DNA of 64,000 bases from Pegea sp. RAD2-039 (Eukaryota; Chordata; Thaliacea; Salpida; Salpidae). The position numbers were made by a program, and so were the translations under genes. The notes under the pieces were generated by a model that was not told the DNA's origin, searched no databases, and saw only the letters and a list, made by a program, of their open reading frames with translations. The stretch lies in assembly GCA_034620365.1 (NCBI GenBank), contig JAQGEQ010000237.1, positions 268,001-332,000 of the forward strand, in the 5' to 3' direction. Positions 9,561 to 58,360 of this stretch are shown one piece after another (positions within the stretch are counted from its first letter, which is position 1; every line of letters begins with the position of its first letter).

Positions 9561-11892
9561 ATGGAAAGATATCTCAACATTCCATACAAGAAGTCCCACG
9601 CTACATCTGAGAAGTAAGATTAATTCTTATTTATATTTTTAACATACTTAATAAAAATGTTTTAAAAAAGTAACCATAACTTAAAAAATATATCTCTAAA
9701 ACTTGTTTTTATACTATTATGTTGTTAGTTTATATTATATTGTGTTGTTGTTTATTAAATAATCTAATTGTTTTTTTAAACTGGTATTTATCCCTCAAAC
9801 TTTTGATGCTTATTTAAACTGTGATTATTTTTTAATGTTGTCATTTAACATTTTTTAAATAATATTTAATTTCTAAATACAAATATTTATTTGAGATAAA
9901 ATGATTTTCTTTTCATTTATTTTTAGTAACTCAACTCTTGTACCAACCAATCAGCATAATGAAGAAGAAATATTTAAACAAAATCCTTCTTCAGCAGATG
10001 AAGAAAACATCAATTTAACTTCAACAAAAACCTATTTTTCAAATCGTCGACAAAACTTCTTGGTCCCTGTTACACAACAACAAACTTTCAGCAACATAGT
10101 ATCTCATCCTAAAATTATTTTTAAGCAAAGATCTACCAGTAATAGAAGCAACACTTCTAATGGTTATGCTTTACCTGCTACTACCAAACAAAGACAACTT
10201 TGGAAAAGAATTGGTTTAGTTACTAACAGCACTTCCACTGTAAATGCTCCATTACTTAGAAAGCTTTTAATGGATCCTTCTAAACCCAAACCTACTCACC
10301 ATGGTAACCAAGCAATAACTTCTTTAAATACTTCATTTTTTACGCAATCAGTTGGAACTGAAACAGATTTACGAAATCCTACTGATCAAAGTAAACTAGG
10401 TTTTGATAAGAGTTACAATGACAATGCAATCATACCACCTCAAACAAGCAACAAAAACCAATCACCTACTTTTCATTCTAACAAAAATGGCCGACAAAAA
10501 TACAGCATCGTAGCTCTTATATTGAAAGCTCTAGAATCAAATGAAGATAAAGACATGTCTCTATCTGATATTTACAAGTTTGTTGAAAATATAGAATCCT
10601 CTGTCGAAAGTTTGAAAACTACCAAAAGAAACTCAATCAGAACTACTTTGAGTATTTATGATTTCTTTTATAAGGTTCCCAAAGAAAACGGGAAGAAGGG
10701 AAACTACTGGAAGTCGAAACGTAAATTGAAAGAGTTGTTTCATGAAGATAACTTTTCAAGAAGATTATCAGAAAAGAAGATTTCTTCGACTCCTAACCCT
10801 AATCCAACAGATTACTTACCAAGAAATGATTTTGCTTCTACATCATTATTTGTTGGAAATTCATCTCAAATAATTCAAAGTAATTGTAGAACTCAACCAC
10901 TGGCTAATTACTCTGTAAATAATTCCAAGCAGCAATTACTAAATCAAACTAATGTTATTTACTCACAACAATCTAATCCAATCAACAATTTGGAACAAAG
11001 AAGTAAAGAAACTCGAGTCGATGCTGTTTATATTTCTGAAAGAAATCAGTTTCAATCAACTAACAGTAATTGTCAGCAACAAATTTTACCTCAAAACCAG
11101 ATAAACAATTTTCAACCAACTTCAATTCCATTCAATGCTACAGGACAAGTCAATGCTGTTAACATAGAACCACAAATTGAAGGTTGTTCTGATTTTAATA
11201 AAATTAATTGTGGATACAGTGATTTGAAACCAACGAATCATTTGTCGTATCAATCAGTTGATCCTCAATCGAATCATATATTAGATTCATCTCAAGTGGT
11301 TCCAACCAACAGAGCTCATCAACAACCAACTAACTTCTATCAACATCTTTGTACTGATCAACTAACACCAAATCAAATAACTCAGTTTAACTCACAACGA
11401 GTGATTCCAGTTAATAACTTTGGACAAATTCAAGAAACTCAATTTGATTCTACTTATCAAGTTCAGCAAATTCAACCTCAGTTTCGTGAGTCGAATCATC
11501 TGCAAGAAAATTTCAACCAATCAAATACCAGCTACTTACAACCCAGTCAACTTCCAGTTAATATTATTGGACAAACTAATAATCCCAAATCTTCTGTATC
11601 AGTGAATCATTCGTTGAATTGCAATCAAGTATTACCAACTCATACAAACAAGTATATTTCACATTATTCACCAAATCGTTTGAATCAAACCAATCAGACC
11701 GATTATCTTCATAATAATAACTTTGGACAAGGAATTATTCAAAATATTCAAAATGTTTCCAACTGCAACCCTACAATAAGCCACCATCAGCCAGCAAACC
11801 CAAATATTCAGCAGAATAATCAGATTCAAATCATTAATGTACAACCCAACTGGTCTCAAAATAAAACTACGAAACAAAGATGGTGTTGGTGA
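9561..11892 (+). CDS. divergent forkhead (FOX) protein, copy 1, stop-loss extended
   Basis: Predicted nuclear DNA-binding protein of 672 aa in two exons, 9561-9613 (starts MERYLNIPYKK) and 9927-11892, with a 313-nt GT-AG intron; the split codon AA|T gives Asn. The forkhead domain is at about residues 206-298: QKYSIVALILKAL (helix 1), SLSDIYKFV (helix 2), KRNSIRTTLSIYDFFYKV (helix 3), then the well-conserved wing KVPKENGKKGNYW and a basic end (NFSRRL). Family canon in helix 3 is NSIRHNLS; here His-Asn is Thr-Thr. Residues 300 to the end are Gln/Asn/Ser/Pro-rich and unstructured-looking. In this copy the common stop at 11851 is TGG, adding 13 residues ending in WCW. I cannot place it in a named FOX class. 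Confidence 0.85.
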
Positions 11893-13524
11893 CAACAAAT
11901 CATATTTGGATGTCAGTTCTTTTTTCAACTAAATTTGAAGTTACGAAAACTGAACAAGTCTTTGTTAATAACGAATCTCAAAAACAACTTCTAATTTACA
12001 GCTGCAGTCAAGATTGATATTTCCTTAAAATTGTTTGAAGTTTTTATCATATTACTTTTGATTTCCTTCGTTTCTTTTTTGATTGAATTAAATTATGTGA
12101 AGTTTTAAGTTGTATTGTTACATGTATGTAACTGTTTGTGTTGTTTGCAATTTAACAATTAATTTCATTAAATGTTTATTTTCAGTAAAATTTGTAGATT
12201 TTTTAACAAGATGGTTATTTGCTTGATTAAAGAGCTTAGTATAATTTATCGTCATTATATCGCTCTTTCGCGTTTCTTCTTCTACTTCATTTCATTAAAG
12301 AATGATGTCTTCATCATCTCATGAAACACGAAGCACTCTGGAATCAGATTTCAAAATTTTGATTCAGTTGATTTCTAATTAATTTAATTTCTGAAATTTA
12401 GTAGAAAAATCAAACAACATTTTCAGCAGTTACTTCACGATATGTGAAAAGTAATTGAAAAATCTGAGTATATTACAAACACAAATTTCTATTGTTTGAT
12501 TTCAGTTTGTTCTTTAATAGTTTGTGTTCTTGTTACAATCTAAGACTAAATTGGATGTTGGATTTTACAGAATCAATCAACTTTGTATAAAAAAGAAAAA
12601 TATTTTCTCCATTTAAAAAGTGAATAATTATTAAGGTATTAGAATGTAGATTGAAAAATTTTGAAATAAAATTAGAATTGTTAAAGAATATGTTAGCTTC
12701 ATCTTCCAATTTGTTAAATTTAGTGTTACCAATTAAAATTATTTTAAATTTAATTAAACTATAAACGAATTTATCAAAGATTTTATAACTTGTCTGAAGA
12801 TTTTATTTAGAAATTTTGCTTTATCGTTGAATTAACTAAATTATTATTTATGATAATTTCATTATAATCTTAATAATTTATTTTTCAATAAATTCTTTTA
12901 GAATAAAGTTTTGTGATAGCTTGCAAGGATAAAGATTAAATCAGATGTTTTAGATTTAATAGAATTGAAAAAGAAATAAATCTACTTTTTTAACAAATAG
13001 GGTTTTATTAAAATTTAAATAAACATTTTAACTTATCTATTTTCTAGCATCGTTGAATTCAAACTTTCTACTTTCAAATTTCATTATTATTTTCAAGGAA
13101 TTTTTTCAGATAGATTTAATTAAGATTTGTTAAATTATTTGAAGATCTTTTATTATTCTACAAATATCACTGAACAAAAGATTGGAATTACTGACATAAA
13201 GTTTATTTAAGAAGTTGTTTTTGAAGATCCACCTATATAACAATTGTTTCTTTTTGATTTAAAATTATTTTGAGGTAAGTTCGACTCTTGCTTTTTTACT
13301 AATGTTCTTACCAACTATCTAAAAATATATTTTTAAATAAATCAACTTTTATAAACAATTCCGTTTTATTTTAATTTATTCAATTCTTTAATTTGATTTT
13401 TGTGTCTAACTTTTTATATACAAACTTTAGTTGTAAAAAGAAATTATAAAAAAAGGTTGCTAGTATTTCAAAGTTAAAAACTATCTACTTTATGTAAAAA
13501 CTGTATTTCTATTTCATTAAAAAA

Positions 13525-13750
13525 AAAATGTTAAAGTCTAAGGCGTACATATAAGGATGTACCAATAGAAAATAACTGTTTTTTGTTAAGTTTATTTATA
13601 GAGTTGTTTTTGTAAACATGTTTTCCAAGATAGAGAATAAATACGATTTGATTTATCTAGCCAATTCATTTTATAAAAGCTTGACAGCTAGTAGTTTATC
13701 AGACCTTGTAAGACTTTTATTGTATTTGTAGTTTTATACTCAGAAAGCGA
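13525..13750 (+). promoter_or_regulatory. conserved promoter-like block of forkhead copy 2
   Basis: Same block as in unit 1: GTACAT/ATGTAC inverted repeat, TATAAAA at 13672-13678, TCAGA at 13699-13703, followed by GTAAGA. Conservation among copies is seen; function is inferred. Confidence 0.4.
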
Positions 13751-14590
13751 CTTTCTTTTACTAATAATTTTGATTTATGTAATATTTAGTTGTAATTAGA
13801 AAGTTGTTTTACAAATTTATTTTTAAATTATATCCTAAAAATCTATTTTACTTTTAGTTTGTAAATCATTAGTTATGTTGAAGTCGTTTTGTTTTAGAGT
13901 TTATTAATTTAAAATAATTCTTATCTAATAGTTAAAAGTTTAGTTGAAGTAATATTTAGTTGAAGTCACAAAGTTTTAAATTGAAAATGAATTTTTAAAA
14001 ATCTATTCATCTTTAGATTTATCTTTATCTTTTAACTAGCAAACATGACTTTCTTTATAATTTTGTAATTATAAAAAGTTATTAGATTATTTATTATATT
14101 GAATATTGGAAAAGAACAGAATTGAAGATATTTAAAAATTAGAAATAAAAGCTACAAAATGCAATAAATAAAGTAATAACTTCAGGGAATAAACAAAACA
14201 TTTTTTAAATTACTTTTAAATAAAATCAAATTAGAATTATTACAGTAAGAACTCATTTATAAGCAGTTCGAAAAATTAGATATCATAAAAGTTGTTTTTA
14301 CGAAAATTATTCTATTTATTTTTATGTTGAAACTTTGACCCCTAAGAATTATCGACAAAAATTCTTCTGATGTTTACTTCATCTAGATTTAAATAATTGA
14401 AATTTTGAGGCTTATATTTTTTTTAATATTTTTTTAGTTTATTAACTAACTTAAGATCTTAAGAATTTCATCAAATTTGCTAAGATTTTCTAGCCTTCAA
14501 TTTTAATTTAATTTTCATCAAGCTGTTTAAGTAAGAACAAATTTTAAGTAGAAGTTTTTACTGTTTATTCGAGAACATTATTAGTCTAAG

Positions 14591-16882
14591 ATGGAAAGAT
14601 ATCTCAACATTCCATACAAGAAGTCCCATACTACATCTGAGAAGTAAGATGAATTTTTATTTATGTTTTTGACATACTTAATAAAAATGTTTTAAAAAAG
14701 TAACCATACCTTAAAAAATATATCTCTAATACTTGTTTTTATACTATTATGTTGTTAGTTTATATTATATTGTGTTGTTGGTTATTAAATAATCTAATTG
14801 TTTTTTTAAACTGGTATTTATCCCTCAAACTTTTGATGCTTATTTAAACTGTTATTATTTTTTAATGTTGTTACTTACTTTTTTCAAAATAATATTTATT
14901 ATCTAAATACAAATATTTATTTGAGATAAAATAATTTCCTTTCATTTATTTTTAGTAACTCAACTCTTGTACCAACCAATCAGCATAATGAAGAAGAAAT
15001 AATTAAACAAAATCCTTCATCAGTAGATGAAGAAAACATCAATTTAACTTCAACAGAAACCTATTTTTCAAATCGTCGACAAAACTTCTTGGTCCCTGTT
15101 ACACAACAACAAACTTTCAGCAACATAGTATCTCATCCTAAAATTATTTTTAAGCAAAGATCTACCAGTAATAGAAGCAACACTTCTAATGGTTATGCTT
15201 TACCTGCTACTACCAAACAAAGACACCTTTGGAAAAGAATTGGTTTAGTTACTAACAGCAGTTCTACTGTAAATACTCCATTACTTAGAAAGCTTTTAAT
15301 GGATCCTTCTAAACCCAAACCTACTCACCATGGTAACCAAGCAATAACTTCTTTAAATACTTCATTGTGTACGCAATCAGTTGGAACTGAAACAGATTTA
15401 CGAAATCCTACTGATCAAAGTAAACTAGGTTTTGATAAGAGTTACAATGACAATACAACCATGCCACCTCAAACAAGCAACAAAAACCAATCACCTACTT
15501 TTCATTCTAACAAAAATGGCCGACAAAAATACAGCATCGTAGCTCTTATATTGAAAGCTCTAGAATCAAATGAAGATAAAGACATGTCTCTATCTGATAT
15601 TTACAAGTTTGTTGAAAATATGGAATCCTCTGTCGAAAGTTTGAAAACTACCAAAAGAAACTCAATCAGAACTACTTTGAGTATTTATGATTTCTTTTAT
15701 AAGGTTCCCAAAGAGAACGGGAAGAAGGGAAACTACTGGAAGTCGAAACGTAAATTGAAAGAGTTGTTTCATGAAGATAACTTTTCAAGAAGATTATCAG
15801 AAAATAAGATTTCTTCGACTCCTAACCCTAATCCAACAGATTACTTACCAAGAAATGATTTTGCTTCTACATCATTATCTGTTGGAAATTCATCTCAAAT
15901 AATTCAAAGTAATTGTAGAACTCAACCACTGGTTGATTACTCTGTAAATAATTCCAAGCAGCAATTACTAAATCAAACTAATGTTATTTACTCACAACAA
16001 TCTAATCCAATCAACAATTTGGAACAAAGAAGTAAAGAAACTCGAGTCGATGCTGTTTATATTTCTGAAAGAAATCAGTTTCAATCAACTAACAGTAATT
16101 GTCAGCAACAAATTTTACCTCAAAACCAGATAAACAATTTTCAACCAACTTCAATTCCATTCAATGCTACAGGACAAGTCAATGCTGTTAACATAGAACC
16201 ACAAATTGAAGGTTGTTCTGATTTTAATAAAATTAATTGTGGATACAGTGATTTGAAACCAACGAATCATTTGTCGTATCAATCAGTTGATCCTCAATCG
16301 AATCATATATTAGATTCATCTCAAGTGGTTCCAACCAACAGAGCTCATCAACAACCAACTAACTTCTATCAACATTTTTGTACTGATCAACTAACACCAA
16401 ATCAAATAACTCAGTTTAACTCACAACAAGTGATTCCAGTTAATAACTTTGGACAAATTCAAGAAACTCAATTTGATTCTACTTATCAAGTTCAGCAAAT
16501 TCAACCTCAGTTTCGTGAGATGAATCATCTGCAAGAAAATTTCAACCAATCAAATACCAGCTATTTACAACCCAGTCAACTTCCAGTTAATATTATTGGA
16601 CAAACTAATAATCCCAAATCTTCTGTATCAGTGAATCATTCGTTGAATTGCAATCAAGTATTACCAACTCATACAAACAAGTATATTTCACATTATTCAC
16701 CAAATCGTTTGAATCAAACCAATCAGATCAATTATCTTCAAAATAATAACTTTGGACAAGGAATTATTCAAAATATTCAAAATATTCCCAACTGCAACCC
16801 TACAATATACCAGCATCAGCCAGCAAACCCAAATATTCAGCAAAATAATCAGATTCAAATCATTAATGTACAACCCAACTGA
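14591..16882 (+). CDS. divergent forkhead (FOX) protein, copy 2
   Basis: 659 aa; exons 14591-14643 and 14956-16882. The start is the conserved MERYL exon, not an internal codon; without exon 1 the second exon has no ATG until far inside. Same domain layout as copy 1. Differences include Met for Ile in the forkhead helix region (VENMESS), SENKISS and LVDYS; none alters the wing motif. Ends at the standard TGA after NVQPN. An AATAAA hexamer lies only 7 nt past the stop (16889-16894), probably too close to be the working poly(A) signal. Confidence 0.85.
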
Positions 16883-18674: not shown

Positions 18675-18900
18675 AAATTTAATGTCTAAGGCGCACATAT
18701 AAGGATGTACCAATAGAAAATCATTGTTTTTTGTTAAGTTTATTTATAGAGTTGTTTTTGTAAACATGTTTTCCAAGATAGAGAATAAATACGATTTGAT
18801 TTATCTAGCCAATTCATTTTATAAAAGCTTGACAGCTAGTAGTTTATCAGACCCTGTAAGACTTTTATTGTATTTGTAGTTTTATACTCAGAAAGCGACT
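18675..18900 (+). promoter_or_regulatory. conserved promoter-like block of forkhead copy 3
   Basis: TATAAAA at 18820-18826 with the same downstream spacing. The inverted repeat has one change here (gcacat instead of gtacat), so perfect pairing of that element is not strictly kept. Confidence 0.35.
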
Positions 18901-19741
18901 TTCTTTTATTTATAATTTTGATTTTTATAATATTTAGTTGTAATTAGAAAGTTTTTTTTTAAATTTTTTTTTTAAATTATATTCTAAAAATCTATTTTAC
19001 TTTTAGTTTGTAAATCATTAATTATGTTGAAGTCGTTTTGTTTTAGAGTTTATTGAATTATAATAATTCTTATCTAATAGTTACAAATTTAGTTGAAGTA
19101 ATATTTAGTTGAAGTCACAAAGTTTTAAATTGAATATGAATTTTTAAAAATCTATTTATCTTTAGTTTTATCTTTATCTTTTAACTAACAAACATGACTT
19201 TCTTTATAATTTTGTAATTATAAAAAGTTATTAGATTATTTATTATATTGAATATTGGAAAAGAACAGAATTGAATATATTTAAAAATTAGAAGTGAAAT
19301 TTACAAAACAGCAATAAATAAAGTAATAACTTTAGGTAATAAAGAAAACATTTTTTAAATTACTTTTAAATAGAATCAAATTAGAATTATTACAGTAAGA
19401 ACTCATTTATAAGCAGTTCGAAAAATTAGATATCATAAAAATTGTTTTTACGAAAATTATTCTATTTATTTTTATGTTGAAACTTTGACCCCTAAGAATT
19501 ATCGACAAAAATTCTTCTGATGTTTTGTTCATCTAGATTCAAATAATTGAAATTTTGAGGCTTACATTTTTTTCAATTTTTTTTCAGTTTATTAACTAAC
19601 TTAAGATCTTAAGAATTTCATCAATTTTTTCAAAGATTTTCTAACTTTCAATTTTAATTTAATTTTCATCAAGCTGTTTAAGTAAGAACAAATTTTGAGT
19701 AGAAGTTTTTACTGTTTATTCGAGAACATTATTAGTCTAAG

Positions 19742-22032
19742 ATGGAAAGATATCTCAACATTCCATACAAGAAGTCCCATACTACATCTGAGAAGTAAGA
19801 TGAATTTTTATTTATATTTTTGATATACTTAATAAAAATGTTTTAAAAAAGTAACCATAACTTAAAAAATATATTTCTAAAACTTGTTTTTATACTATTA
19901 TGTTGTTAGTTTATACTATATTGTGTTGTTGTTTATTAAATAATCTAATTGTTGATTTAAACTGGTATTTATCCCTCAAACTTTTGATGCTTATTTAAAC
20001 TGTGATTATTTTTAATGTTGTCATTTAACTTTATCTAAATAATATTTAATATCTAAATACAAATATTTATTTGAGATAAAATAATTTCCTTTCATTTATT
20101 TTTAGTAACTCAACTCTTGTACCAACCAATCAGCATAATGAAGAAGAAATGTTTAAACAAAATCCTTCTTCAGCAGATGAAAAAAACATCAATTTAACTT
20201 CAACAGAAACCTATTTTTCAAATCGTCGACAAAACTTCATGGTCCCTGTTACACAACAACAAACTTACAGCAACAAAGTATTTCATCCTAAAATTATTTT
20301 TAAGCAAAGATCTACCAGTAATAGAAGCAACACTTCTAATGGTTATGCTTTACCTGCTACTACCAAACAAAGACACCTTTGGAAAAGAATTGGTTTAGTT
20401 ACTAACAGCAGTTCTACTGTAAATGCTCCATTACTTAGAAAGCTTTTAATGGATCCTTCTAAACCCAAACCTACTCACCATGGTAACCAAGCAATAGTTC
20501 CTTCAAATACTTCCTTGTGTACGCAATCAGTTGGAACTGAAACAGATTTACGAAATCCTACTGATCAAAGTAAACTAGGTTTTGATAAGAGTTACAATGA
20601 CAATACAATCATGCCACCTCAAACAAGCAACAAAAACCAATTACCTACTTTTCATTCTAACAAAAATGGCCGACAAAAATACAGCATCGTAGCTCTTATA
20701 TTGAAAGCTCTAGAATCAAATGAAGATAAAGACATGTCTCTATCTGATATTTACAAGTTTGTTGAAAATATGGAATCCTCTGTCGAAAGTTTGAAAACTA
20801 CCAAAAGAAACTCAATCAGAACTACTTTGAGTATTTATGATTTCTTTTATAAGGTTCCCAAAGAGAACGGGAAGAAGGGAAACTACTGGAAGTCGAAACG
20901 TAAATTGAAAGAGTTGTTTCATGAAGATAACTTTTCAAGAAGATTATCAAAAAATAAGATTTCTTCGACTCCTAACCCTAATCCAGCAGATTACTTACCA
21001 AGAAATGATTTTGCTTCTACATCATTATTTGTTGGAAATTCATCTCAAATAATTCAAAGTAATTGTAGAACTCAACCACTGGCTAATTACTCTGTAAATA
21101 ATTCCAAGCAGCAATTACTAAATCAAACTAATGTTATTTACTCACAACAATATAATCCAATCAACAATTTGGAACAAAGAAGTAAAGAAACTCGAGTCGA
21201 TGCTGTTTATATTTCTGAAAGAAATCAGTTTCAATCAACTAACAGTAATTGTCAGCAACAAATTTTACCTCAAAACCAGATAAACAATTTTCAACCAACT
21301 TCAATTCCATTCAATGCTACAGGACAAGTCAATGCTGTTAACATAGAACCACAAATTGAAGGTTGTTCTGATTTTAATAAAATTAATTGTGGATACAGTG
21401 ATTTGAAAACATCGAATCATTTGTCGTATCAATCAGTTGATCCTCAATCGAATCATATATTAGATTCATCTCAAGTGGTTCCAACCAACAGAGCTCATCA
21501 ACAACCAACTAACTTCTATCAACATCTTTGTACTGATCAACTAACACCAAATCAAATAACTCAGTTTAACTCACAACAAGTGATTCCAGTTAATAACTTT
21601 GGACAAATTCAAGAAACTCAATTTGATTCTACTTATCAAGTTCAGCAAATTCAACCTCAGTTTCGTGAGATGAATCATCTGCAAGAAAATTTCAACCAAT
21701 CAAATACCAGCTACTTACAACCCAGTCAACTTCCAGTTAATATTATTGGACAAACTAATAATCCCAAATCTTCTGTATCAGTGAGTCATTCGTCGAATTG
21801 CAATCAAGTATTACCAACTCATACAAACAAGTATATTTCACATTATTCACCAAATCGTTTGAATCAAACCAATCAGATCAATTATCTTCAAAATAATAAC
21901 TTTGGACAAGGAATTATTCAAAATATTCAAAATATTCCTAACTGCAACCCTACAATAAGCCACCATCAGCCAGCAAACCCAAATATTCAGCAAAATAATC
22001 AGATTCAAATCATCAATGTACAACCCAACTGA
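19742..22032 (+). CDS. divergent forkhead (FOX) protein, copy 3
   Basis: 659 aa; exons 19742-19794 and 20106-22032. An in-frame ATG at 20149 exists in exon 2, but the conserved exon 1 gives the likely start. Carries SKNKISS after the forkhead domain and KTSNHLS in the Q/N region. The forkhead core matches copy 2. The 3' UTR continues into the tail repeat. Confidence 0.85.
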
Positions 22033-22423: not shown

Positions 22424-24619
22424 TCAACTTCAGTGAAAGTTAAGGATTTCTATAAAGTTCTGTTATTGTAAATCTTTTAGGTTGTATCTTTATATTTTAG
22501 TTTATATGAAAGATTTTTTATAATTATATTTTTATTTTAATTAATTATGAAACGTACACTAGCTGAAAATGCTGCGCAAGTTGTTTATAGACCCAAATAA
22601 TCTATTGTCAGTTAATAACAGGCCTTACAAGGAAACAACTTTCATCACCTTCCTACTAGTGTTGATGTAGAGTTTGAACAGTGAAGTAAAATGTGAAGAG
22701 CTTCTTGGTTGCAAAACACAAGATGTTACCAGCACTTTAATAGGTTGAATCTGATTAGATTATGTTGAAATACAAGTTGACTTGACAAAATTTAATGCTC
22801 AATTGGGTAGATACACTAAAATAAATATATATTTCTCAACACATGGTCCCGTTTCTATTATCTTCTGATTTCAAATTCTTATTTATAATAAATTAATATT
22901 TGAATAGTTGTGAGTTTAAAGTGAGTCTAGCCAACTGTGTATTTTTATATATATCAGCAAATGACTTTTTAATTGAAATGAAAAACCTTTTTAAATTAGT
23001 TTTTATTATAAAGTATATTGTGTAACTAAATATCAAAACTTTTAAAGTTTAATCTAATTTATATTTTGTCACCAAGTATTTAACAATACCACCAATGAAA
23101 AACTCAATAACCTACTATTAAAGCAAATCAGATGAAACTTAATATAACAGATAAACTAGAATCAGATGAACAAACAGCAGATAAACAATCAAGAAAACAA
23201 ACCAACAACAAACGAAACTGCAACAGTTACACCAGGAAAGAGTTACTTGTTAGATTCTTGATGAAAAATTTAAATTAAAATGAAAACTAATTTTCAGTTT
23301 GTATAATTGTTAGCTCATTCTCTTACTAGAACTACTTAGTGGCAATATTTTTGTATAAATGTTGGTTGGTTGATTGAAAAGATTTTCTAAAAACTTGATT
23401 ATTTAACTTGAAGTTGTTGTTGCAGCAAAGCAGCAGGACTTTTTGGCTTTTTTTCTTTAAGACTTTACAAAAATAGTTTTTAAAATGAATTATTTTGTTG
23501 GGGTTCTTTGACTTCTTACAATTTTAACTTATTGAATCTATTGAAGCTATGAAGATTGGTTTAGATGATAAATTAATCTTATAAAATACTTGGAAGTAGT
23601 ACTTGGAAAACTGATATTTTCTTGAAAGTTACTACAACTTTAAGATTTTATTTAATTATTTCAATCTTCAATTAGTTTTGATCTTAAGTAATTGATAAAA
23701 TTAATTAGATATCTGCGCATCTGAATTGGTTTAAATGTTTTTAAGGTGTTTATCTGTAATCTACACAACAGAAAATAATTTTTGGTTGATAATATATGAA
23801 TAATCCAGCAGGCCAAACCAGGAGGTTCGATAATAATAAGAACAGAATTTCTTCAAAAACAGAACAAGGTAGCCAAATACCTTCACTGGCTTATTTGCAG
23901 ATCAACAGTATTTCCCTGTAAATGAAAAATAAAATCTACAGAATACAAAGAGAAGTTAAAACCAACTGATCAGATATTGCTGTAAAATATAAAAGTAAGA
24001 AAAACGGTTTACTAGTAGATGACAAAGTAACAAGCAACATAAATTTAAACATAAAAAAATTCTAAAAAGTTGAAATAGAAAAATGTAAAAATAAATATGA
24101 AGATTATGGAAAGTAAAAACTAAATTACTTCTAAATAAATTAAAATATTTAACAAATACCAATTATTAAACTTTTAGTAATTATTTGTTTCTATTTGTAA
24201 ACTGAAAGAATCTTATAAGGCTTGATGTAAGTATATAGAAATATTAAAACATTTTTTTCTGTGAGAATTTTTTAATTGTGTGAGAAAAAATCAACTTTCA
24301 TCCCTTTAAAAGATCAATCACAAGATCTATCTGCAAGCCAGAAGTATCCTTGTTCATAATATTTGGAAATAAAAGCTCTCTTAAATATTTGAATTATATA
24401 TTTTACATTAGTAAAAATAATATAAATTTTTGTTATAATCTATAAACGAAAATATATTATCTAAAAAACTTATTTCTTATTGTTTTGCTTTGCTTGTGTA
24501 AATTCTAATCATTAATCATAATAATAATGGTAATAATTGAAACAAGCTTACAGAACTGTGGGTTTGAGGTAACCACAGTATTATAAAAGCTTGTTATAAG
24601 GTTCTGCTTGTAAGTTCTG
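22424..24619. repeat. 2.2 kb non-coding tail repeat, copy A
   Basis: AT-rich, with no open frame of note. Repeated at 30367-32511, 37675-39455 plus 40965-41317, and in part at 52681-53060. It ends with the AACAAGCTT...AAGCTTGTT hairpin just before the EAG exon copy. It could be a decayed transposon, but I see no transposase or target-site duplication. Confidence 0.75.
24541..24595. repeat. imperfect 55-nt hairpin, copy A
   Basis: Outer arms AACAAGCTT (24541-24549) and AAGCTTGTT (24587-24595) pair perfectly; inside them CTGTGG (24556-24561) pairs with CCACAG (24573-24578). Found in all four tail copies. Confidence 0.7.
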
Positions 24620-24846
24620 CTGCTGATCAAAATAGCTTTGATGACGTCAGTAGTGGGTTTCGTTTAAGTTTTGATGAAGAAGACGCAAAGACTGTTGAAC
24701 AACGAATCCAAAGAAGTTTAAGTCGAGTCAGTGACCGAATCTCAGCTATTGATTCAACACTTGCTGCTATTTTATCATACGTCACTACTACGTCATCAAC
24801 ACGTGATCAGAAGAAGTTGTTTGATCGTACTGGGAGCAAGGAATGA
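24620..24846 (+). pseudogene. orphan copy of the last EAG exon
   Basis: Same length as the real exon (227 nt) and open to the same TGA, with few changes (for example Glu to Gln in VEQRIQ and Glu to Asp in AIDST). It has no other channel exons and no good acceptor (ttctgctg instead of ggtcag), so it is a duplication by-product rather than a gene. Confidence 0.9.
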
Positions 24847-25680
24847 TAGGAAGACTTTTTTGATGGGATTTTTAGGGATTCTTCCACTTTTCGAGTTGAA
24901 ACTCAAAAATAAGATTTTTTTTGAACTTTTTTTTCAATTGTTGCAAATGTAGTGAATCTAATATTAAAGAAAATTTGATTTCTGCGAAAAAAAGGACACC
25001 AAAAATGATTAATTTATCTTTATCAGATATTTAAATTAGTTTTGAATAATTTAAATGAAATTAAAATCTAATTTTATCGACAAAAAGTTTCCAGATTCAA
25101 TTCTTTTTTCTTTTATAAATTTAATAAATTAGAATTTGTTATTTTTTCATCAAGTTAAAAATTTAAATAACTTTTTGGTAAGTTACTTTCAAGAACATAT
25201 ATTCATCTTAAAAGATTTAATTAGTAAATGTAAGTTATTTTCTATTAATAAGAAATATCCAAATAATTACCACAAATACATTGATGATAAGTTTAAAGTC
25301 AGAACGAGCAATTTGTGAATTTAAAGAAAAATACTTTTAAATTGCTATCAACGAAAAATCTTTGAAAGTTCAAAGTCCAAAAACCAAGTTAACTGATTTA
25401 GTTGAAGTGAATTTGATTTTAAATTTTGTTAAAAGCTCAAAAAATTAAATTTTAATTTAGCTTTTAACTAGTTAACTAGAAAGTTAAATGATAAGCTTTC
25501 ATCTGGATACAAAATTAAAGACTCCTCATCAATAAGACATTTTTTGTGAAATCAGATGCTGCTGATTAAAGAAGAAAGGAAGATGAAGATCTCAAGATCA
25601 CTAAATCTTAATTGCATCTTCTTGAAGAAGTGTGTCTTCCACACATTGAGTCATAAATGAGTAAAAAAGAAGATAAAGTT
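24847..25680. repeat. copy of EAG 3' UTR and flank
   Basis: Follows the orphan exon collinearly and matches 6398-7230. The poly(A) hexamer has been altered. No gene seen. Confidence 0.85.
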
Positions 25681-26619
25681 TAATTTCTGAAATTTAGTAG
25701 AAAAATCAAACAACATTTTCAGCAATTACTTCACGATATGTGAAAAGTAATTGAAAAATCTGAGTATATTACAAACACAAATTTCTATTGTTTGATTTCA
25801 GTTTGTTCTTTAATAGTTTGTGTTCTTGTTACAATCTAAAAACGAATTAGATGTTGGATTTTACAGAATCAATCAACTTTGTATAAAAAAATAAAATATT
25901 TTCTCCGTGTAAAAAGTGAATAATTATTAAGGTATTAGAAAGTAGATTGAAAAGTTTTGAAATAAAATTAGAACTTGTTAAAGAATATGTTAGCTTCATC
26001 TTCCAATTTATTAAATTTAGTGTTACCAATTAAAATTATTTTAAATTTAATTAAACTATAAATGATTTTATCAAAGATTTCCTAATTAGTCTGAAGATTT
26101 TATGAAGAAATTTTGCTTTATTGTTGAATTAACTAAATTATTATTTATGATAATTTTATTATAATCTTAATAATTTATTTTTCAATAAATTCTTTTAGAA
26201 AAAAGTTTTGTGATAGCTTGCAAAGATAAAGATTAAATCAGATGTAATAATCTAGAAATATCATTGAACAAAAGATTGCAATTACTGACATAAAGTTTAT
26301 TTAAGAAGTTGTTTTTAAAGATCCACCTATATAACAATTGTTTCTTATGATTTAAAATTATTTTGAGGTAAGTTCGACTCTTGCTTTTTTACTAATGTTC
26401 TTACCAACTATCTAAAAAAATATTTTTAAATAAATCAACTTTTATAACTAATTCTGTTTTATTTTAATTTATTTAATTCTTTAATTTCATTTTTGTTTCT
26501 AACTTTTTATATACAAACTTTGATCATAAATAGAAATTATAAAAAATGTTGCTAGTATTTCAAAGTTAGCAATTATCTACTTTATGTAAAAACTGTATTT
26601 CTATTTCATTAAAAAAAAA

Positions 26620-27683: not shown

Positions 27684-29976
27684 ATGGAAAGATATCTCAA
27701 CATTCCATACAAGAAGTCCCATACTACATCTGAGAAGTAAGATGAATTTTTATTTATATTTTTGACATACTTAATAAAAATGTTTTAAAAAAGTAACTAT
27801 AAGTTAAAAAATATATCTCTAAAACTTATTTTTATACTATTATGTTATTAGTTTATACTATATTGTGTTGTTGTTTATTAAATAATCTAATTGTTTTTTT
27901 AAACTGGTATTTATCCCTCAAACCTTTGATGCTTATTTAAACTGTGATTATTTTTTAATGTTGCCACTTAACTTTTTTTAAATAATATTTATTATCTAAA
28001 TACAAATATTTATTTGAGATAAAATGATTTTCTTTTCATTTATTTTTAGTAACTCAACTCTTGTACCAACCAATCAGCATAATGAAGAAGAAATAATTAA
28101 ACAAAATCCTTCATCAGCAGATGAAGAAAACATCAATTTAACTTCAACAGAAACCTATTTTTCAAATCGTCGACAAAACTTCTTGGTCCCTGTTACACAA
28201 CAACAAACTTTCAGCAACATAGTATTTCATCCTAAAATTATTTTTAAGCAAAGATCTACCAGTAATAGAAGCAACACTTCTAATGGTTATGCTTTACCTG
28301 CTACTACCAAACAAAGACACCTTTGGAAAAGAATTGGTTTAGTTACTAACAGGACTTCCACTGTAAATGCTCCATTACTTAGAAAGCTTTTAATGGATCC
28401 TTCTAAACCCAAACCTACTCACCATGGTAACCAAGCAATAGTTTCTTCAAATACTTCATTGTGTACGCAATCAGTTGGAACTGAAACAGATTTACGAAAT
28501 CCTACTGATCAAAGTAAACTAGGTTTTGATAAGAGTTACAATGACAATACAATCATGCCACCTCAAACAAGCAACAAAAACCAATTACCTACTTTTCATT
28601 CTAACAAAAATGGCCGACAAAAATACAGCATCGTAGCTCTTATATTGAAAGCTCTAGAATCAAATGAAGATAAAGACATGTCTCTATCTGATATTTACAA
28701 GTTTGTTGAAAATATGGAATCCTCTGTCGAAAGTTTGAAAACTACCAAAAGAAACTCAATCAGAACTACTTTGAGTATTTATGATTTCTTTTATAAGGTT
28801 CCCAAAGAAAACGGGAAGAAGGGAAACTACTGGAAGTCGAAACGTAAATTGAAAGAGTTGTTTCATGAAGATAACTTTTCAAGAAGATTATCAGAAAAGA
28901 AGATTTCTTCGACTCCTAACCCTAATCCAACAGATTACTTACCAAGAAATGATTTTGCTTCTACATCATTATTTGTTGGAAATTCATCTCAAATAATTCA
29001 AAGTAATTGTAGAACTCAACCACTGGCTAATTACTCTGTAAATAATTCCAAGCAGCAATTACTAAATCAAACTAATGTTATTTACTCACAACAATCTAAT
29101 CCAATCAACAATTTGGAACAAAGAAGTAAAGAAACTCGAGTCGATGCTGTTTATATTTCTGAAAGAAATCAGTTTCAATCAACTAACAGTAATTGTCAGC
29201 AACAAATTTTACCTCAAAACCAGATAAACAATTTTCAACCAACTTCAATTCCATTCAATGCTACAGGACAAGTCAATGCTGTTAACATAGAACCACAAAT
29301 TGAAGGTTGTTCTGATTTTAATAAAATTAATTGTGGATACAGTGATTTGAAACCAACGAATCATTTGTCGTATCAATCAGTTGATCCTCAATCGAATCAT
29401 ATATTAGATTCATCTCAAGTGGTTCCAACCAACAGAGCTCATCAACAACCAACTAACTTCTATCAACATCTTTGTACTGATCAACTAACACCAAATCAAA
29501 TAACTCAGTTTAACTCACAACAAGTGATTCCAGTTAATAACTTTGGACAAATTCAAGAAACTCAATTTGATTCTACTTATCAAGTTCAGCAAATTCAACC
29601 TCAGTTTCGTGAGATGAATCATCTGCAAGAAAATTTCAACCAATCAAATACCAGCTACTTACAACCCAGTCAACTTCCAGTTAATATTATTGGACAAACT
29701 AATAATCCCAAATCTTCTGTATCAGTGAATCATTCGTTGAATTGCAATCAAGTATTACCAACTCATACAAACAAGTATATTTCACATTATTCACCAAATC
29801 GTTTGAATCAAACCAATCAGATCAATTATCTTCAAAATAATAACTTTGGACAAGGAATTATTCAAAATATTCAAAATGTTCCCAACTGCAACCCTACAAT
29901 ATACCAGCATCAGCCAGCAAACCCAAATATTCAGCAAAATAATCAGATTCAAATCATTAATGTACAACCCAACTGA
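27684..29976 (+). CDS. divergent forkhead (FOX) protein, copy 4
   Basis: 659 aa; exons 27684-27736 and 28050-29976. The forkhead region is the same as in copies 2 and 3. Copy-specific change NRTSTV in the N-terminal linker. Like copy 1, the end of its intron opens an in-frame ATG (28024) that would replace MERYL by a hydrophobic MIFFSFIF start if the first intron were not spliced; the conserved splice sites argue against this being normal. Confidence 0.85.
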
Positions 29977-30366
29977 TCTCAAAATAAAACTACGAAACAA
30001 GGTGGTGTTGGTGACAACAAATCATATTTGGAGGTCAGTTCTGTTTTCAACTAAATTTGAAGTTACGAAAACTGAACAAGTCTTTGTTAATAACGAATCT
30101 CAAAAACAACTTCTAATTTACAGCTGCAGTCAAGATTGATATTTCCTTAAAATTGTTTGAAGTTTTTATCTTATTACTTTTGATTTGCTTATTTTCTTTT
30201 TTGATTGAATTAAATTATGTGAATTTTTAAGTAGTATCGTTACATGTATGTAACTGTTTGTGTTGTTTGCAATTTAACAATTAATTTCATTAAATGTTTA
30301 TTTTCAGTAAAATTTGTTGATTTTTAACAAGATGGTTGTTTGCTTGATTATAGAGCTTAGTATAAT

Positions 30367-32511
30367 TCCAACTTCAGTGAAAGTTAAGGATTTCTACAAA
30401 GTTCTGTTGCTGTAAATCATGAAGATTGTATCTGTATAAAGTACTTTGTATATTTTAGTTTATATGAAAGATTCTTTATAATTATATTTTTATTTTAAGT
30501 AATTATAAAACACAAGAGCTGAAACCACTAAGTAAGTTATTTATAGACCCAAATAATCTATTGTCAGTTAATAAGAGGCATCACAAGGAAACAACTCTCA
30601 TCATTTTCCTACAAGAGTAGATGTAGAGTTAGAACAGTGAAGTAGAATGTGAACAGCTTCTTGGTTACGAAACATAAGATTTGTTACCAGCACTTTAATA
30701 GGTTGAATCTGATTAGACTATATTTAAGTAGCTTGAATTACTTTAGATTATATCGAAATACAAGTTGATTTGACAAAATTTATTGTTAAATTGGGTAGAT
30801 AAAGTCAAATAGATACATGTTTCTCAATACATGGTCCTGTTTGTATTATCTTCTGATTTTGAAGTATTAGTTATAACAAATTAATATTTGAATAGTTGTG
30901 AGTTTAAAGTGAGTCTAGGCAAATGTGTATTTATATATATCAGCAAATGACTTTTTAATAATTGAAATGAAAAGTTTTTTAAAAATTAGTTTTTATTATA
31001 AAGTATATTTTGTAACTAAATATTAAAACTTTTATAGCTTTATCTAATTTATATTTTTTCACCAAGTATTTAACAATGCCACCAATGAAAAAGCTTAATA
31101 ACCTACTATTAATGCAAATCAGATGAAGCTTAATATAACAATAACATATAAACTAAAATCAGATGAACAAACAGCAAATAAACAATCAAGAAAACAAACC
31201 AACAACAAATGAAACCGCAAAAGTTACACCAGGAAAGAGTTACTTGTTAGACTCTTGATGAAAAACTTAAATTAAATTGAAAACTAAATTTCAGTTTGTA
31301 TATTTGTTAGCTCATTCTGTTACTAGAACTACTTAGTGGCAATATTTTTGTATAAATGTTGGTTGGTTGATTGAAAAGCTTTTCTTTTCAAATCATTATT
31401 TAACTCGAAGTTGGTGTTGCAGCAAAGCAGCAGGACTTTTTGGCTTTTTTCTTTAAAACTTTACAAAAAATAGTTTTTAAAATAAATTATTTTGTTGGGG
31501 TTTTTTGAAACATCTTAACTTATTGAATCTATGAAGCTATGAAGATTAGTGTAGATGATAAATTAATCTTATAAAATACTTGGAAGTAGTATTTGGAAAA
31601 CTGATATTTTCTTGAAAGTAACTACAACTTTAAGATTTTATTTATTTATTCTAATCTTGATTTAGCTTTTATCTTAAGTAATTGATAAAATTAAATAGAT
31701 ATCTGCGCTTCTGAACTGGTTTAAATGTTTTTAAAAGTTTATCTGTAATCTGCACAACAGAAAATAAAATAACAAGGTAGCCAAATACCTTCACTGGCTT
31801 ATTTGCATATCAACAGATATTATTGTAAATGAAAAATACAAACTATAAAATACAAAGAAAAGTTAAAACCAACTGATCAGATATAGCTGTAAAATATAAA
31901 TGTAAGAAAAACGATTTACTAGTAGATGACAAAGTAACAAGCAACATAAATTTAAACATCAAAAAATTCTAAAAGTTCAAATAGAAAAATGTAGAAATAA
32001 ATATGAAGATTATGGAAAGTAAAAACTAAATTACTTCTAAATAAATTAAAATATTTAACAAATATAAGTTATTAAACTTTTAGTAATTATTTGTTTTTAT
32101 TTGTAAACTGAAAGAATCTTATATGGCTTGATGTAAGTATATAGAAATATTAAAACATTTATTTCTATGAGAATTTTTTAATTGTGTGAGGAAAAATCAA
32201 CTTTCATCCCTTTAAAAGATCAATCACAAGATCTATCTGCAAGCCAGAAGTATCCTTGTTCAGAATATTTGGAAAGAAAAGCTCTCTTAAATATTTGATT
32301 TATATTTTACATTAGTAAAAATACTATAAATTTTTTTTTATAATCTATAAACGAAAATATATTATCTACAAAACTTATTTCTTATTTTCCTCTTTGCTTG
32401 TGTAAATTCTAATCTATAATAACAATGGTAATGGTAATAATTGAAACAAGCTTACAGAACTGTGGGTTTGAGGCAACCACAGTATTATAAAAGCTTGTTA
32501 TAAGGTTCTGC
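30367..32511. repeat. non-coding tail repeat, copy B
   Basis: Matches 22424-24619 with several small deletions (for example around 31770, where about 70 bp are missing). Contains the hairpin at its 3' end. Confidence 0.75.
32445..32499. repeat. imperfect hairpin, copy B
   Basis: Same outer arms (AACAAGCTT/AAGCTTGTT) and inner CTGTGG/CCACAG pairing as copy A. Confidence 0.7.
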
Positions 32512-32710
32512 TTGTACGGTGAGCTGCTGATCAAAATAGCTTTGATGACGTCAGTAGTGGGTTTCGTTTAAGTTTTGATGAAGAGGACGCGAAGACTGTT
32601 GAAGACCCAATCCAAAGAAGTCTAAGTCGAGTCAGTGACCGAATCTCAGCTATTGAATCAGCACTTGCTGCTATTTTATCATACGTCACTACTACGTCAT
32701 CAACACGTGA
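32512..32710 (+). pseudogene. truncated copy of the last EAG exon
   Basis: Begins with tacggtgag (the original is tacggtcag, so the intron end is included) and follows the exon to acgtcatcaacacgtga, then jumps straight into the unit 5 flank (agcagttacttc). About 0.9 kb of EAG 3' end and flank has been deleted relative to the copy at 24.6 kb. Confidence 0.85.
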
Positions 32711-33934
32711 AGCAGTTACTTCACGATATGTGAAAAGTAATTGAAAAATCTGAGTATATTACAAACACAAATTTCTATTGTTTGATTTCAGTTTGTTCTT
32801 TAATAGTTTGTGTTCTTGTTACAATCTAAGACTAAATTTGATGTTGGATTTTACAGAATCAATCAACTTTGTATAAATAAGGAAATATTTTCTCCATTTA
32901 AAAAGTGAATAATTATTAAGGTATTAGAAAGTAGATTGAAAAATTTTGAAATAAAATTACAACTTGTTAAAGAATATGTTAGCTTCATCTTCCAATTTGT
33001 TAAATTTAGTGTTACCAATTAAAATTATTTTAAATTTAATTAAACTATAAACGAATTTATCAAAGATTTTATAACTTGTCTGAAGATTTTATTTAGAAAT
33101 TTTGCTTTATCGTTGAATTAACTAAATTATTATTTATGATAATTTCATTATAATCTTAATAATTTATTTTTCAATAAATTCTTTTAGAATAAAGTTTTGT
33201 GATAGCTTGCAAAGATAAAGATTAAATCAGATGCTTTAGATTTAATAGAATTGAAAAAGAAATAAATCTACTTTTTTAACAAATAAGGTTTTATTAAAAT
33301 TTAAATAAACATTTTAACTTATCTATTCTCTTGTAGATTTTTTTTCTTTTTTATCTGTTGTTTACATAAGATGTTTTTATAAAAAATTAGTAAAAACAGA
33401 ATAGTTGTTTACATAAGATGTTAATATTCGATAAATTTATGAATTGTTAAAAATTATCGTTGAATTCAAACTTTCTACTTTCAAATTTCATTATTATTTT
33501 CAAGGAATTTTTTCAGATAGATTTAATTAAGATTTGTTAAATTATTAGAAGATCTTTTATTATTCTAGAAATATCATTGAACAAAAGATTGGAATTACTG
33601 ACATAAAGTTTATTTAAGAAGTTGTTTTTGAAGATCCACCTATATAACAATTGTTTCTATTGATTTAAAATTATTTTGAGGTAAGTTCGACTCTTGCTTT
33701 TTTACTAATGTTCTTACCAACTATCTAAAAATATATTTTTAAATAAATCAACTTTTATAAACAATTCCGTTTTATTTCAATTTATTTAATTCTTTAATTT
33801 CATTTTTGTTTCTAACTTTTTATATACAAACTTTGATTGTAAAAAGAAACTAAAAAAAATGTTGCTAGTATTTCAAAGTTAAAAATTATCTACTTTATGT
33901 AAAAACTGTATTTCTATTTCATTAAAATAAAAAT

Positions 33935-34160
33935 GTTAAAGTCTAAGGCGTACATATAAGGATGTACCAATAGAAAATAACTGTTTTTTGTTAAGTTTAT
34001 TTATAGAGTTGTTTTTGTAAACATGTTTTCCAAGATAGAGAATAAATACGATTTGATTTATCTAGCCAATTCATTTTATAAAAGCTTGACAGCTAGTAGT
34101 TTATCAGACCTTGTAAGACTTTTATTGTATTTGTAGTTTTATACTCAGAAAGCGACTTTC
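33935..34160 (+). promoter_or_regulatory. conserved promoter-like block of forkhead copy 5
   Basis: Inverted repeat GTACAT/ATGTAC intact; TATAAAA at 34077-34083; TCAGA then GTAAGA at the usual spacing. Confidence 0.4.
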
Positions 34161-34994
34161 CTTTATTTATAATTTTGATTTTTGTAATATTTAGTTGTAA
34201 TTAGAAAGTTGTTTTACAAATTTATTTTTAAATTATATTCTAAAAATCTATTTTACTTTTAGTTTGTAAATCATTAGTTATGTTGAAGTTGTTTTGTTTT
34301 AGAGTTTATTAATTTAAAATAATTCTTATCTAATAGTTACAAATTTAGTTGAAGTAATATTTAGTTGAAGTCACAAAGTTTTAAATTGAAAATGAATTTT
34401 TAACAATCTATTCATCTTTAGATTTATCTTTATCTTTTAACTAGCAAACATGACTTTCTTTATACTATGTAATTATAAAAAGTTATTAGAATATTTATTA
34501 TATTGAATATTGGAAAAGAACAGAATTGAAGATATTTAAAAATTAGAAATAAAAGCTACAAACAGCAATAAATAAAGTAATAACTTTAGGTAATAAACAA
34601 AACATTTTGTAAATTACTTTTAAATAAAATAAAATTAGAATTATTACAGTAAGAACTCATTTATAAGCAGCTCGAAAAAATAGATATCATAAAAATTGTT
34701 TTTACGAAAATTATTCTATTTATTTTATGTTGAAACTTTGACCCCTAAGAATTATCGACAAAAATTCTTCTGATGTTTACTTCATCTAGATTTAAATAAT
34801 TGAAATTTTGAGGCTTACATTTTTTTCAATTTTTTTTCAGTTTATTAACTTACTTAAGATCTTAAGAATTTCATCAATTCTTTCAAAGATTTTCTAGCCT
34901 TCAATTTTAAATTAATTTTCATCAAGCTGTTTAAGTAAGAACAAATTTTGAGCAGAAGTTTTTACTGTTTATTCGAGAACATTATTAGTCTAAG

Positions 34995-37283
34995 ATGAAA
35001 AGATATCTCAACATTCCATACAAGAAGTCCCATACTACATCTGAGAAGTAAGATGAATTTTTATTTATTTTTTGACATACTTAATAAAAATGTTTTAAAA
35101 AAGTAACCATAACTTAAAAAATATATCTCTAATACTTGTTTTTATACTATTATGTTGTTAGTTTATACTATATTGTGTTGTTGTTTATTAAATAATCTAA
35201 TTGTTTTTTAAACTGGTATTTATCCCTCAAACTTTTGATGCTTATTTAAACTGTTATTATTTTTAATGTTGTCATTTAACTTTATCAAAATAATATTTAT
35301 TATCTAAATACAAATATTTATTTGAGATAAAATGATTTCCTTTCATTTATTTTTAGTAACTCAACTCTTGTACCAACCAATCAGCATAATGAAGAAGAAA
35401 TGTTTAAACAAAATCCTTCGTCAGCAGATGAAAAAAACATCAATTTAACTTCAACAGAAACCTATTTTTCAAATCGTCGAAAAAACTTCTTGGTCCCTGT
35501 TACACAACAACAAACTTTCAGCAACATAGTATTTCATCCTAAAATTATTTTTAAGCAAAGATCTACCAGTAATAGAAGCAACACTTCTAATGGTTATGCT
35601 TTACCTGCTACTACCAAACAAAGACACCATTGGAAAAGAATTGGTTTAGTTACTAACAGCACTTCCACTGTAAATGCTCCATTACTTAGAAAGCTTTTAA
35701 TGGATCCTTCTAAACCCAAACCTACTCACCATGGTAACCAAGCAATAGTTCCTTCAAATACTTCATTGTGTACGCAATCAGTTGGAACTGAAACAGATTT
35801 ACGAAATCCTACTGATCAAAGTAAACTAGGTTTTGATAAGAGTTACAATGACAATACAACCATGCCACCTCAAACAAGCAACAAAAACCAATTACCTACT
35901 TTTCATTCTAACAAAAATGGCCGACAAAAATACAGCATCGTAGCTCTTATATTGAAAGCTCTAGAATCAAATGAAGATAAAGACATGTCTCTATCTGATA
36001 TTTACAAGTTTGTTGAAAATATGGAATCCTCTGTCGAAAGTTTGAAAACTATCAAAAGAAACTCAATCAGAACTACTTTGAGTATTTATGATTTCTTTTA
36101 TAAGGTTCCCAAAGAGAACGGGAAGAAGGGAAACTACTGGAAGTCGAACCGTAAATTGAAAGAGTTGTTTCATGAAGATAACTTTTCAAGAAGATTATCA
36201 GAAAAGAAGATTTCTTCGACTCCTAACCCTAATCCAACAGATTACTTACCAAGAAATGCTTTTGCTTCTACATCATTATTTGTTGGAAATTCATCTCAAA
36301 TAATTCAAAGTAATTGTAGAACTCAACCACTGGTTAATTACTCTGTAAATAATTCCAAGCAGCAATTACTAAATCAAACTAATGTTATTTACTCACAACA
36401 ATCTAATCCAATCAACAATTTGGAACAAAGAAGTAAAGAAACTCGAGTCGATGCTGTTTATATTTCTGAAAGAAATCAGTTTCACTCAACTAACAGTAAT
36501 TGTCAGCAACAAATTTTACCTCAAAACCAGATAAACAATTTTCAACCAACTTCAATTCCATTCAATGCTACAGGACAAGTCAATGCTGTTAACATAGAAC
36601 CACAAATTGAAGGTTGTTCTGATTTTAATAAAATTAATTGTGGTTACAGTGATTTGAAACCATCGAATCATTTGTCGAATCAATCAGTTGATCCTCAATC
36701 GAATCATATATTAGATTCATCTCAAGTGGTTCCAACCAACAGAGCTCATCAACAACCAACTAATTTCTATCAACATCTTTGTACTGATCAACTAACACCA
36801 AATCAAATAACTCAGTTTAACTCACAACAAGTGATTCCAGTTAATAACTTTGGACAAATTCAAGAAACTCAATTTGATTCTACTTATCAAGTTCAGCAAA
36901 TTCAACCTCAGTTTCGTGAGATGAATCATCTGCAAGAAAATTTCAACCAATCAAATACCAGCTATTTACAACCCAGTCAACTTCCAGTTAATATTATTGG
37001 ACAAACTAATAATCCCAAATCTTCTGTATCAGTGAATCATTCGTTGAATTGCAATCAAGTATTACCAACTCATACAAACAAGTATATTTCACATTATTCA
37101 CCAAATCGTTTGAATCAAACCAATCAGATCAATTATCTTCAAAATAATAACTTTGGACAAGGAATTATTCAAAATATACAAAATGTTTCCAACTGCAACC
37201 CTACAATAAGCCAGCATCAGCCAGCAAACCCAAAAATTCAACAAAATAATCAGATTCAAATCATTAATGTACAACCCAACTGA
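34995..37283 (+). CDS. divergent forkhead (FOX) protein, copy 5
   Basis: 659 aa; exons 34995-35047 and 35357-37283. Exon 1 reads MKRYL, a variant shared with the two inverted copies at 43 and 55 kb, which suggests they derive from this end of the array. Forkhead changes: Ile for Thr before KRNSIR (KTIKRN), and Asn for Lys after the wing (WKSNRKL), also seen in the inverted copy at 54.8 kb. The Q/N tail is intact. Confidence 0.85.
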
Positions 37284-45625: not shown

Positions 45626-45715
45626 CTGCTCTGATTTTCAGTATTCTAAGCAGAAGCAGTTTAAAAAAATTTATGACAATCAAGATATCTCCTCTTTGCT
45701 GCTTTAACTTGAAAA

Positions 45716-58327: not shown

Positions 58328-58360
58328 CATGACTCTGAGGCAAAAAATGGTTGCACGAAT

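Follow-up and report, generated by a model that had tools for sequence, protein, structure and literature searches.

How did a group of near-identical, strongly diverged forkhead genes come to lie together on one contig of an animal genome, and what keeps its members alike? The question is raised by a stretch of 64,000 nucleotides (the window; C284:268001–332000) from an AT-rich animal genome of 105.7 Mb in 387 contigs. The + strand of the window carries a tandem array of five complete forkhead (FOX) genes, and two inverted, tail-truncated copies (i6 and i7) lie on the opposite strand. We consider it probable that a FoxL2 gene was duplicated, diverged, was amplified in tandem and has been kept alike by conversion, and that the copies encode modified DNA-binding factors. 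Each of the five genes consists of a 53-nt exon 1, a phase-2 intron of 309–313 nt and one long exon. Splice sites were called from the sequence (donor AA/GTAAGA and acceptor TTTTTAG/T, with slashes at the predicted junctions), and the gene models are predictions. The open reading frames (ORFs) of the long exons are intact (9895–11892, 14930–16882, 20080–22032, 28018–29976 and 35331–37283, all + strand), and each exon 1 starts at its ATG (Table 1). Joining the exons gives predicted proteins of 672 residues for copy 1 and 659 for each of copies 2 to 5, which reproduces the 659–672 residues reported for five complete copies in the first-pass annotation. The copy 1 protein is longer because its original stop codon is lost, with read-through into a further 13 residues.

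The other four full copies are 96–97% identical to copy 2, and the inverted i6 and i7 are 96% and 94% identical to it. The units are unevenly spaced (5.0, 5.2, 7.9 and 7.3 kb) and their non-coding DNA differs by 3–5% on average; therefore, the copies are not one locus assembled repeatedly, and an assembly duplication is ruled out. Profile and protein searches of the genome confined the array to this contig. PF00250 exon matches at E ≤ 0.001 numbered 37 genome-wide (40 candidates scored), seven of them in the array and 30 elsewhere in ∼24 places. The protein search, with the best 20 candidates scored and 18 matches, returned the seven copies, a tail fragment outside the window (C284:355604–355852) and otherwise distant FOX domains; no further close copy was present among those 20 candidates. 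The 1354 bp located 5′ of the copy 1 core recur in full in the five units only, with three other short matches, two of which fall in the i6 flank. Thus, the first-pass annotation is borne out in describing strongly diverged forkhead genes in tandem, with glutamine- and asparagine-rich (Q/N-rich) tails; they lie at one place in the genome.

The forkhead identity, which had been proposed from the same letters, is upheld by profile search. All seven predicted proteins (five copies and two inverted) exceed the curated cut-off of 27 bits for the Pfam Forkhead family (PF00250), with scores of 53.3–58.8 bits and, for the five full copies, E-values of 3.1e-14 to 4.6e-15. The recognition helix is altered: in place of the canonical WQNSIRHNLS, the array has KRNSIRTTLS, such that NSIRHNLS has become NSIRTTLS. 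All seven copies retain the helix residues Asn, Ser and Arg and carry Thr where the usual DNA-contacting His would stand, and the Trp preceding the helix motif has given way to a Lys-Arg context. The wing reads ENGKKGNYW, compared to GGGxxKGNYW in the FOXL2 chain of the PDB. An AlphaFold2 model of residues 190–300 (111 residues), built on an alignment of only seven near-identical rows, reached a pLDDT (predicted local distance difference test) of 43, too low to speak for the putative winged-helix fold. Scans of IMG/VR for the array family and for forkhead domains generally returned no relatives. A second diverged forkhead gene of this genome, at C260:385373–385612 on the minus strand, has the helix KKSLRCALS, also without the His, and was the one such match in the genome search.

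Several observations point to FoxL2 as the source of the array. The best PDB match is FOXL2 (E 5.8e-13, 52 bits), followed by Genesis, which we take to be FOXD3 (47 bits), and FOXC2 (43 bits). The genome has a FoxL2-like gene of its own at C108:34936–35169, referred to below as C108. In a 15-row forkhead tree the array groups with C108 and FOXL2 with support of 80/91, and with C108 itself at 91/80; in a 13-row tree, from which C260 (the other very long branch) and the partial C39 were dropped, the corresponding values are 96/93 and 95/73. In the 13-row set, placements of the array with FoxD, FoxA, FOXC2, C40 or FoxF were rejected with p-values of 0.015–0.026, uncorrected for multiple tests. 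The class names of the genome's own FOX genes were read from their motifs, and the FoxD-like row alone groups with a PDB row that anchors it (96/94). The predicted layout of C108 matches that of the array, with a short exon 1 of 14 whole residues (MQQNIPKKESEEIV) compared to 17 in the array, a phase-2 intron and a single exon containing the domain and tail. The FOX exon of C40 seems to begin at a codon boundary, and phase 2 is therefore no general FOX feature in this genome. The FoxL2/FoxL2-3 class, as represented by C108, shares a KKGNYWK wing and a Q/N-containing tail (23.6% Q+N in C108) with the array, and is its best-matching class. None of 2000 shuffles aligned as well as the array and C108 domains do.

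The array differs from this class in lacking the helix His and Trp, in its very long branch, in its tandem and inverted multi-copy state and in a tail of 360 residues after the domain, compared to 182 in C108. Since the canonical FoxL2 helix and wing are absent, we describe the array as FoxL2-derived rather than as a FoxL2 ortholog. A number of points weigh against even this assignment. The tree panel is small, with several FOX classes missing, and the branch that separates the array from canonical FOX proteins is long, at 4.6 and 5.8 changes per site, so that the tree alone is insufficient. Placement with FoxL2 is fragile on so long a branch, with the 15-row support for the group including FOXL2 at only 80/91, and joining the array to the C11 pair is still allowed (p 0.053, 13-row set). 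Outside the domain, similarity to C108 is weak for exon 1 and its junction (86 of 2000 shuffles as good) and for the tail (17 of 2000), and the N-terminal part has none (311 of 2000). The long branch, the missing classes and the C11 result leave a small chance that long-branch effects have pulled towards FoxL2 what is really a fast-evolving member of another class, such as FoxQ2, FoxI or FoxL1; FoxQ2 is reported to have expanded in spiralians (PMC9539403). We regard this as unlikely, given that FOXL2 is the best PDB match, that the tree groups array, C108 and FOXL2 at 96/93 and that the intron is common to C108 in both phase and position. Introns are also present in foxL2/3 of Owenia (PMC9539403). 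Overall, the PDB match, the tree and the gene structure shared with C108 support, without proving, FoxL2 as the most likely ancestor.

The copies have kept their coding capacity. Mean divergence among the five is lowest in exon 2 (1.6%) and in the 5′ leader taken together with exon 1 (1.8%); it reaches 3.1% in the 3′ flank, 3.9% in the upstream DNA and 4.7% within the intron. Low divergence is thus largely limited to exon 2. The five copies have no indels and no premature stops in 1922 coding columns, compared to 17 indel events in 1999 columns of flank and intron. Expectations were derived from the mutation spectrum of non-coding DNA, in which 148 changes were counted over 1832 sites. Against these, 13 synonymous changes were seen where 39.2 were expected, 55 non-synonymous against 124.3, no nonsense changes against 15.5 and no coding indels against 16.4 (17.8 by a masked count). 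Because synonymous and non-synonymous counts fall together, the depression may largely reflect homogenisation and not amino-acid constraint. Even scaled to the synonymous rate (×0.33), 5.1 stops and 5.4 indels would be expected, and the chances of seeing none are 0.006 and 0.005, respectively. Thus, we conclude that all five reading frames are being maintained, a statement that makes no claim of purifying or positive selection on amino acids.

Other measures pull the opposite way. Two 150-bp windows of exon 2 (10220–10369 and 11720–11869) are as variable as the flanks, and the ratio of non-synonymous to synonymous rates (dN/dS) is 1.33 overall, 1.90 in the N-terminal part (P 0.16), 1.11 in the forkhead and 1.04 in the tail, none significantly different from 1. 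Positive selection was considered for the N-terminal part and is unsupported by that value. The label "rapidly evolving" in the first-pass annotation fits the long branch that leads to the array, but among the copies dN/dS is indistinguishable from 1. Ratios near 1 are also what would be seen in ordinary lineage-specific duplicates under relaxed constraint that are heading towards pseudogenes, their similarity arising from conversion or recent duplication alone. Changes are depressed in both classes within the forkhead as well (one synonymous against 6.3 expected, three non-synonymous against 17.1), copy 1 has lost its stop, and two copies are tail-truncated, one of them with an early stop. 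The intact frames, in which some five stops and five indels would be expected even at the synonymous rate, make such decay improbable in our view.

The units exchange sequence. In the Sawyer test on aligned 4.1-kb units (250 polymorphic columns), the sum of squared fragments is 8061, compared to a permutation mean of 4646, and none of 3000 permutations was as high; nine of the ten pairs fall below 0.05, with the strongest signal between copies 1 and 5 over 8122–8715. All ten possible two-copy groupings are present among 59 informative sites. The inverted copy i6 is the clearest instance. Its 1.65-kb core is 97.2–97.6% identical to the five copies (intron ∼96%), and is bordered by much older homologous flanks (Table 1), of which the 5′ flank scores 279 bits (best of 60 shuffles, 45) and the 3′ flank 69.7 bits (best of 60 shuffles, 36.8). 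Shuffles were used because BLAST E-values are inflated in AT-rich DNA. A simple truncated duplicate is ruled out by the older flanks on both sides, and the simplest reading is that i6 may be an older inverted unit whose core has been overwritten. A counterpart of 11119–11892 was not found at i6 by DNA search (18 bits, shuffle maximum 34). The ORF of i6 has 416 residues and ends in an unrelated LNSQTAFRLSE, and that of i7 has 395, its stop falling before the core end; both retain ∼117 of the 360 tail residues. The ∼10-kb duplication that holds i7 includes reverse-transcriptase pieces and lacks the old 5′ flank. Exon 2 divergence is low in i6 and i7 too (1.8 and 2.5%), next to 4% in the intron.

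These data are best explained by gene conversion, which would reach the inverted unit also. Three points speak against so simple a picture: the pair of copies 2 and 3 gives no exchange signal (P 0.11); runs common to tandem units could also come from unequal crossing-over; and the 5′ edge of the i6 tract is not sharp, because the identity of the flank, from which an insertion of ∼0.8 kb separates the core, fades outward from its highest value near the core. Since the copies exchange sequence and the i6 flanks record an older history, identity is no gauge of the age of the array. The near-identity that had suggested a young array is real, and the inference of youth is only partly upheld, as conversion hides age. 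More generally, near-identity in tandem transcription-factor arrays need not imply youth.

We propose that the FoxL2 duplicate arose beside a KCNH-type channel gene, that it then diverged strongly, and that the diverged duplicate multiplied into a tandem series and an inverted side branch. The proteins would be nuclear DNA-binding factors whose specificity or affinity is modified by the changes around the helix (from His to Thr and from Trp to Lys-Arg), and would act on their targets through a Q/N-rich tail that is presumably disordered. Having several copies would raise the dosage of a single factor or tune it, with conversion keeping the copies alike and purging broken ones. In FOX–DNA structures the core helix contacts are described as strictly conserved, and the equivalents of the His and Asn touch an invariant A-T pair (PMC7062188). 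Binding of FOXC2 is pH-sensitive through the residue equivalent to the His lost from the array; when this residue, His122, is replaced by Lys or Asn, binding in vitro and measurable reporter activity remain, although H122N binds more weakly and both mutants lack pH dependence (PMC12135187). As these mutants, which carry Lys or Asn and not Thr, still bind, the change in the array would be expected to alter specificity, affinity or pH control and not necessarily to abolish binding; the array proteins may have escaped pH control. Lacking the contacting His and the Trp that precedes the helix motif, the proteins could instead have lost normal DNA binding and act as dominant competitors of FoxL2 for its partners, with i6 and i7 as the extreme form. 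Here, i6 retains exon 1, the intron, the forkhead and about one third of the tail, and a precedent exists in quagga FoxL2-Y, whose forkhead domain is disrupted (PMC13015404). Retention of the helix Asn, Ser and Arg in every copy, together with the residual activity of FOXC2 H122K and H122N, renders this a doubtful alternative, and a little less credible than the two discussed above.

FoxL2 regulates ovarian differentiation in molluscs (PMC9539403) and granulosa cells (PMC13428323), and in quagga mussels one of its duplicates is a candidate for the sex-determining locus (PMC13015404). Given this ovarian activity, known from several animals, we infer only that a reproductive or sex-related role would be the first place to look. 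It is very improbable that the array is a FoxL2-derived, copy-number-variable switch of sex or reproductive mode, in which the altered proteins would compete with canonical FoxL2 for targets or partners, and transcripts that extend from sense copies into the inverted, tail-truncated ones would yield double-stranded RNA by which the array is silenced, as a drive-and-suppressor arrangement made out of a transcription factor.

Among known systems, human FOXD4/FOXD4L presumably resembles the array in comprising recent, near-identical, multi-copy FOX genes, but we take these to be segmental duplicates with a canonical helix, and no diverged tandem array. Quagga mussels have three FoxL2-like paralogs clustered on one linkage group and two on another; as in the array, these are structurally modified FoxL2 duplicates that have kept their exon organisation (PMC13015404). 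The modified FoxL2-Y, which lies in the sex-determining region, differs in that it occupies just one locus, which is Y-linked, and has its forkhead interrupted by a premature stop, and the clustered paralogs with complete domains are 88–90% identical to zebra mussel FoxL2, whereas the array copies are far from canonical (PMC13015404). Lineage-restricted tandem expansion, as in the array, is described for spiralian foxQ2 (PMC9539403) and suggested for cat flea FOX duplicates (PMC8918179); foxQ2 belongs to another class, and the accessible portions of these two reports do not describe near-identical, converted copies. FoxQ2 expansions also occur in bivalves (PMC12530298). Searches of open-licence papers on rotifer (Brachionus) FOX genes and on FoxL2 duplication, at the level of listings and abstract openings, brought up no comparable array. 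A derivative of FoxL2 that exists in several converted copies and has changed a residue for reading DNA would allow a natural test of how a developmental transcription factor leaves its class behind, and of whether this is driven by dose and conversion as opposed to new sequence.

Table 1. Positions of the array genes and inverted copies in the window.
Feature	Position	Strand	Remark
Copy 1 exon 1, MERYLNIPYKKSHATSE.., phase-2 donor	9561..9613	+	
Copy 1 exon 2 (N-terminal part, forkhead domain, Q/N tail)	9927..11892	+	
Copy 2 exon 1	14591..14643	+	
Copy 2 exon 2	14956..16882	+	
Copy 3 exon 1	19742..19794	+	
Copy 3 exon 2	20106..22032	+	
Copy 4 exon 1	27684..27736	+	
Copy 4 exon 2	28050..29976	+	
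Copy 4 forkhead domain, residues 201-280 of long-exon ORF, helix RNSIRTTLS	28618..28857	+	Pfam match
Copy 5 exon 1, MKRYL variant	34995..35047	+	
Copy 5 exon 2	35357..37283	+	
i6, inverted tail-truncated copy; core 43141-44788 (exon 1, intron, exon 2 start)	43109..44788	-	
i6 old 5′ flank, homologous to 8867-9299	45703..46184	-	72.6% overall, 85% inner 240 bp
i6 old 3′ flank, homologous to 11940-12193	42816..43067	-	63.6%
i7, inverted tail-truncated copy of i6 in ∼10-kb segmental duplication	54401..56042	-	

The Q/N-rich tail singled out in the first-pass annotation is present (Q+N is 32.5% of 360 residues in copy 4), and is not peculiar to the array. The richest 80 residues contain 32–34 Q+N in the five copies; among 11 other FOX ORFs of the genome (single exons, some partial), a FoxA-like ORF on C6 has 36 and the rest have 15–26. 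The label "prion-like" is weak because AT-rich codons favour Asn. On C6:3783001–3793000, at offsets 1954–4138 and 7518–9702, two inverted FoxA-like genes are 99.6% identical over 2185 bp; the pair appears to be a second FOX duplication in this genome, either very recent or converted.

Upstream of the genes, a 129-bp block (8544..8672, +, copy 1 coordinates) shows no differences across all five units, while DNA elsewhere varies at ∼8% of sites; the rough chance of such an invariant run at the non-coding rate is 0.04. The block contains TTTTATAAAAGC and an ORF starting with ATG (MFSKIENK..) that ends at a GTAAGA donor. It may be a core promoter or, equally possibly, an upstream coding exon that splices in frame to SKMERYL, and is not recognisable in the inverted unit i6. 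Also 5′ of the array lies a gene with PAS, Ion_trans (under the curated cut-off) and cNMP matches, which we read as the probable KCNH-type channel, preceded by an Rcd1 exon that we take to be CNOT9. The probable 3′ end of the channel gene and DNA beyond it recur between FOX units, at 24610–26245 and 32514–32710. On the 3′ side of the array are repeated pieces with RVT_1 matches, presumably CR1-like, and nested direct repeats with reverse-transcriptase ORFs (RVT_1, 58328–59360) occupy 42075–64000 and continue to ∼65760.

Elsewhere in the genome, DM-domain (PF00751) matches number four, two on C30 and one each on C12 and C209. A COX1 family search gave no matches, and neither did a search for the bdelloid spliced leader that allowed up to 3 mismatches. 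As a guess, the AT-richness might suit a monogonont rotifer: in an assembly of Brachionus asplanchnoidis, which at 230 Mb is larger, the low-variability part has its main GC peak near 25% (PMC8447722). Low-complexity ORFs were noted at L051 (609–1829) and L054 (5264–5860): a Gly-rich protein that is hydrophobic over a stretch near its N-terminus, and TNGP repeats.

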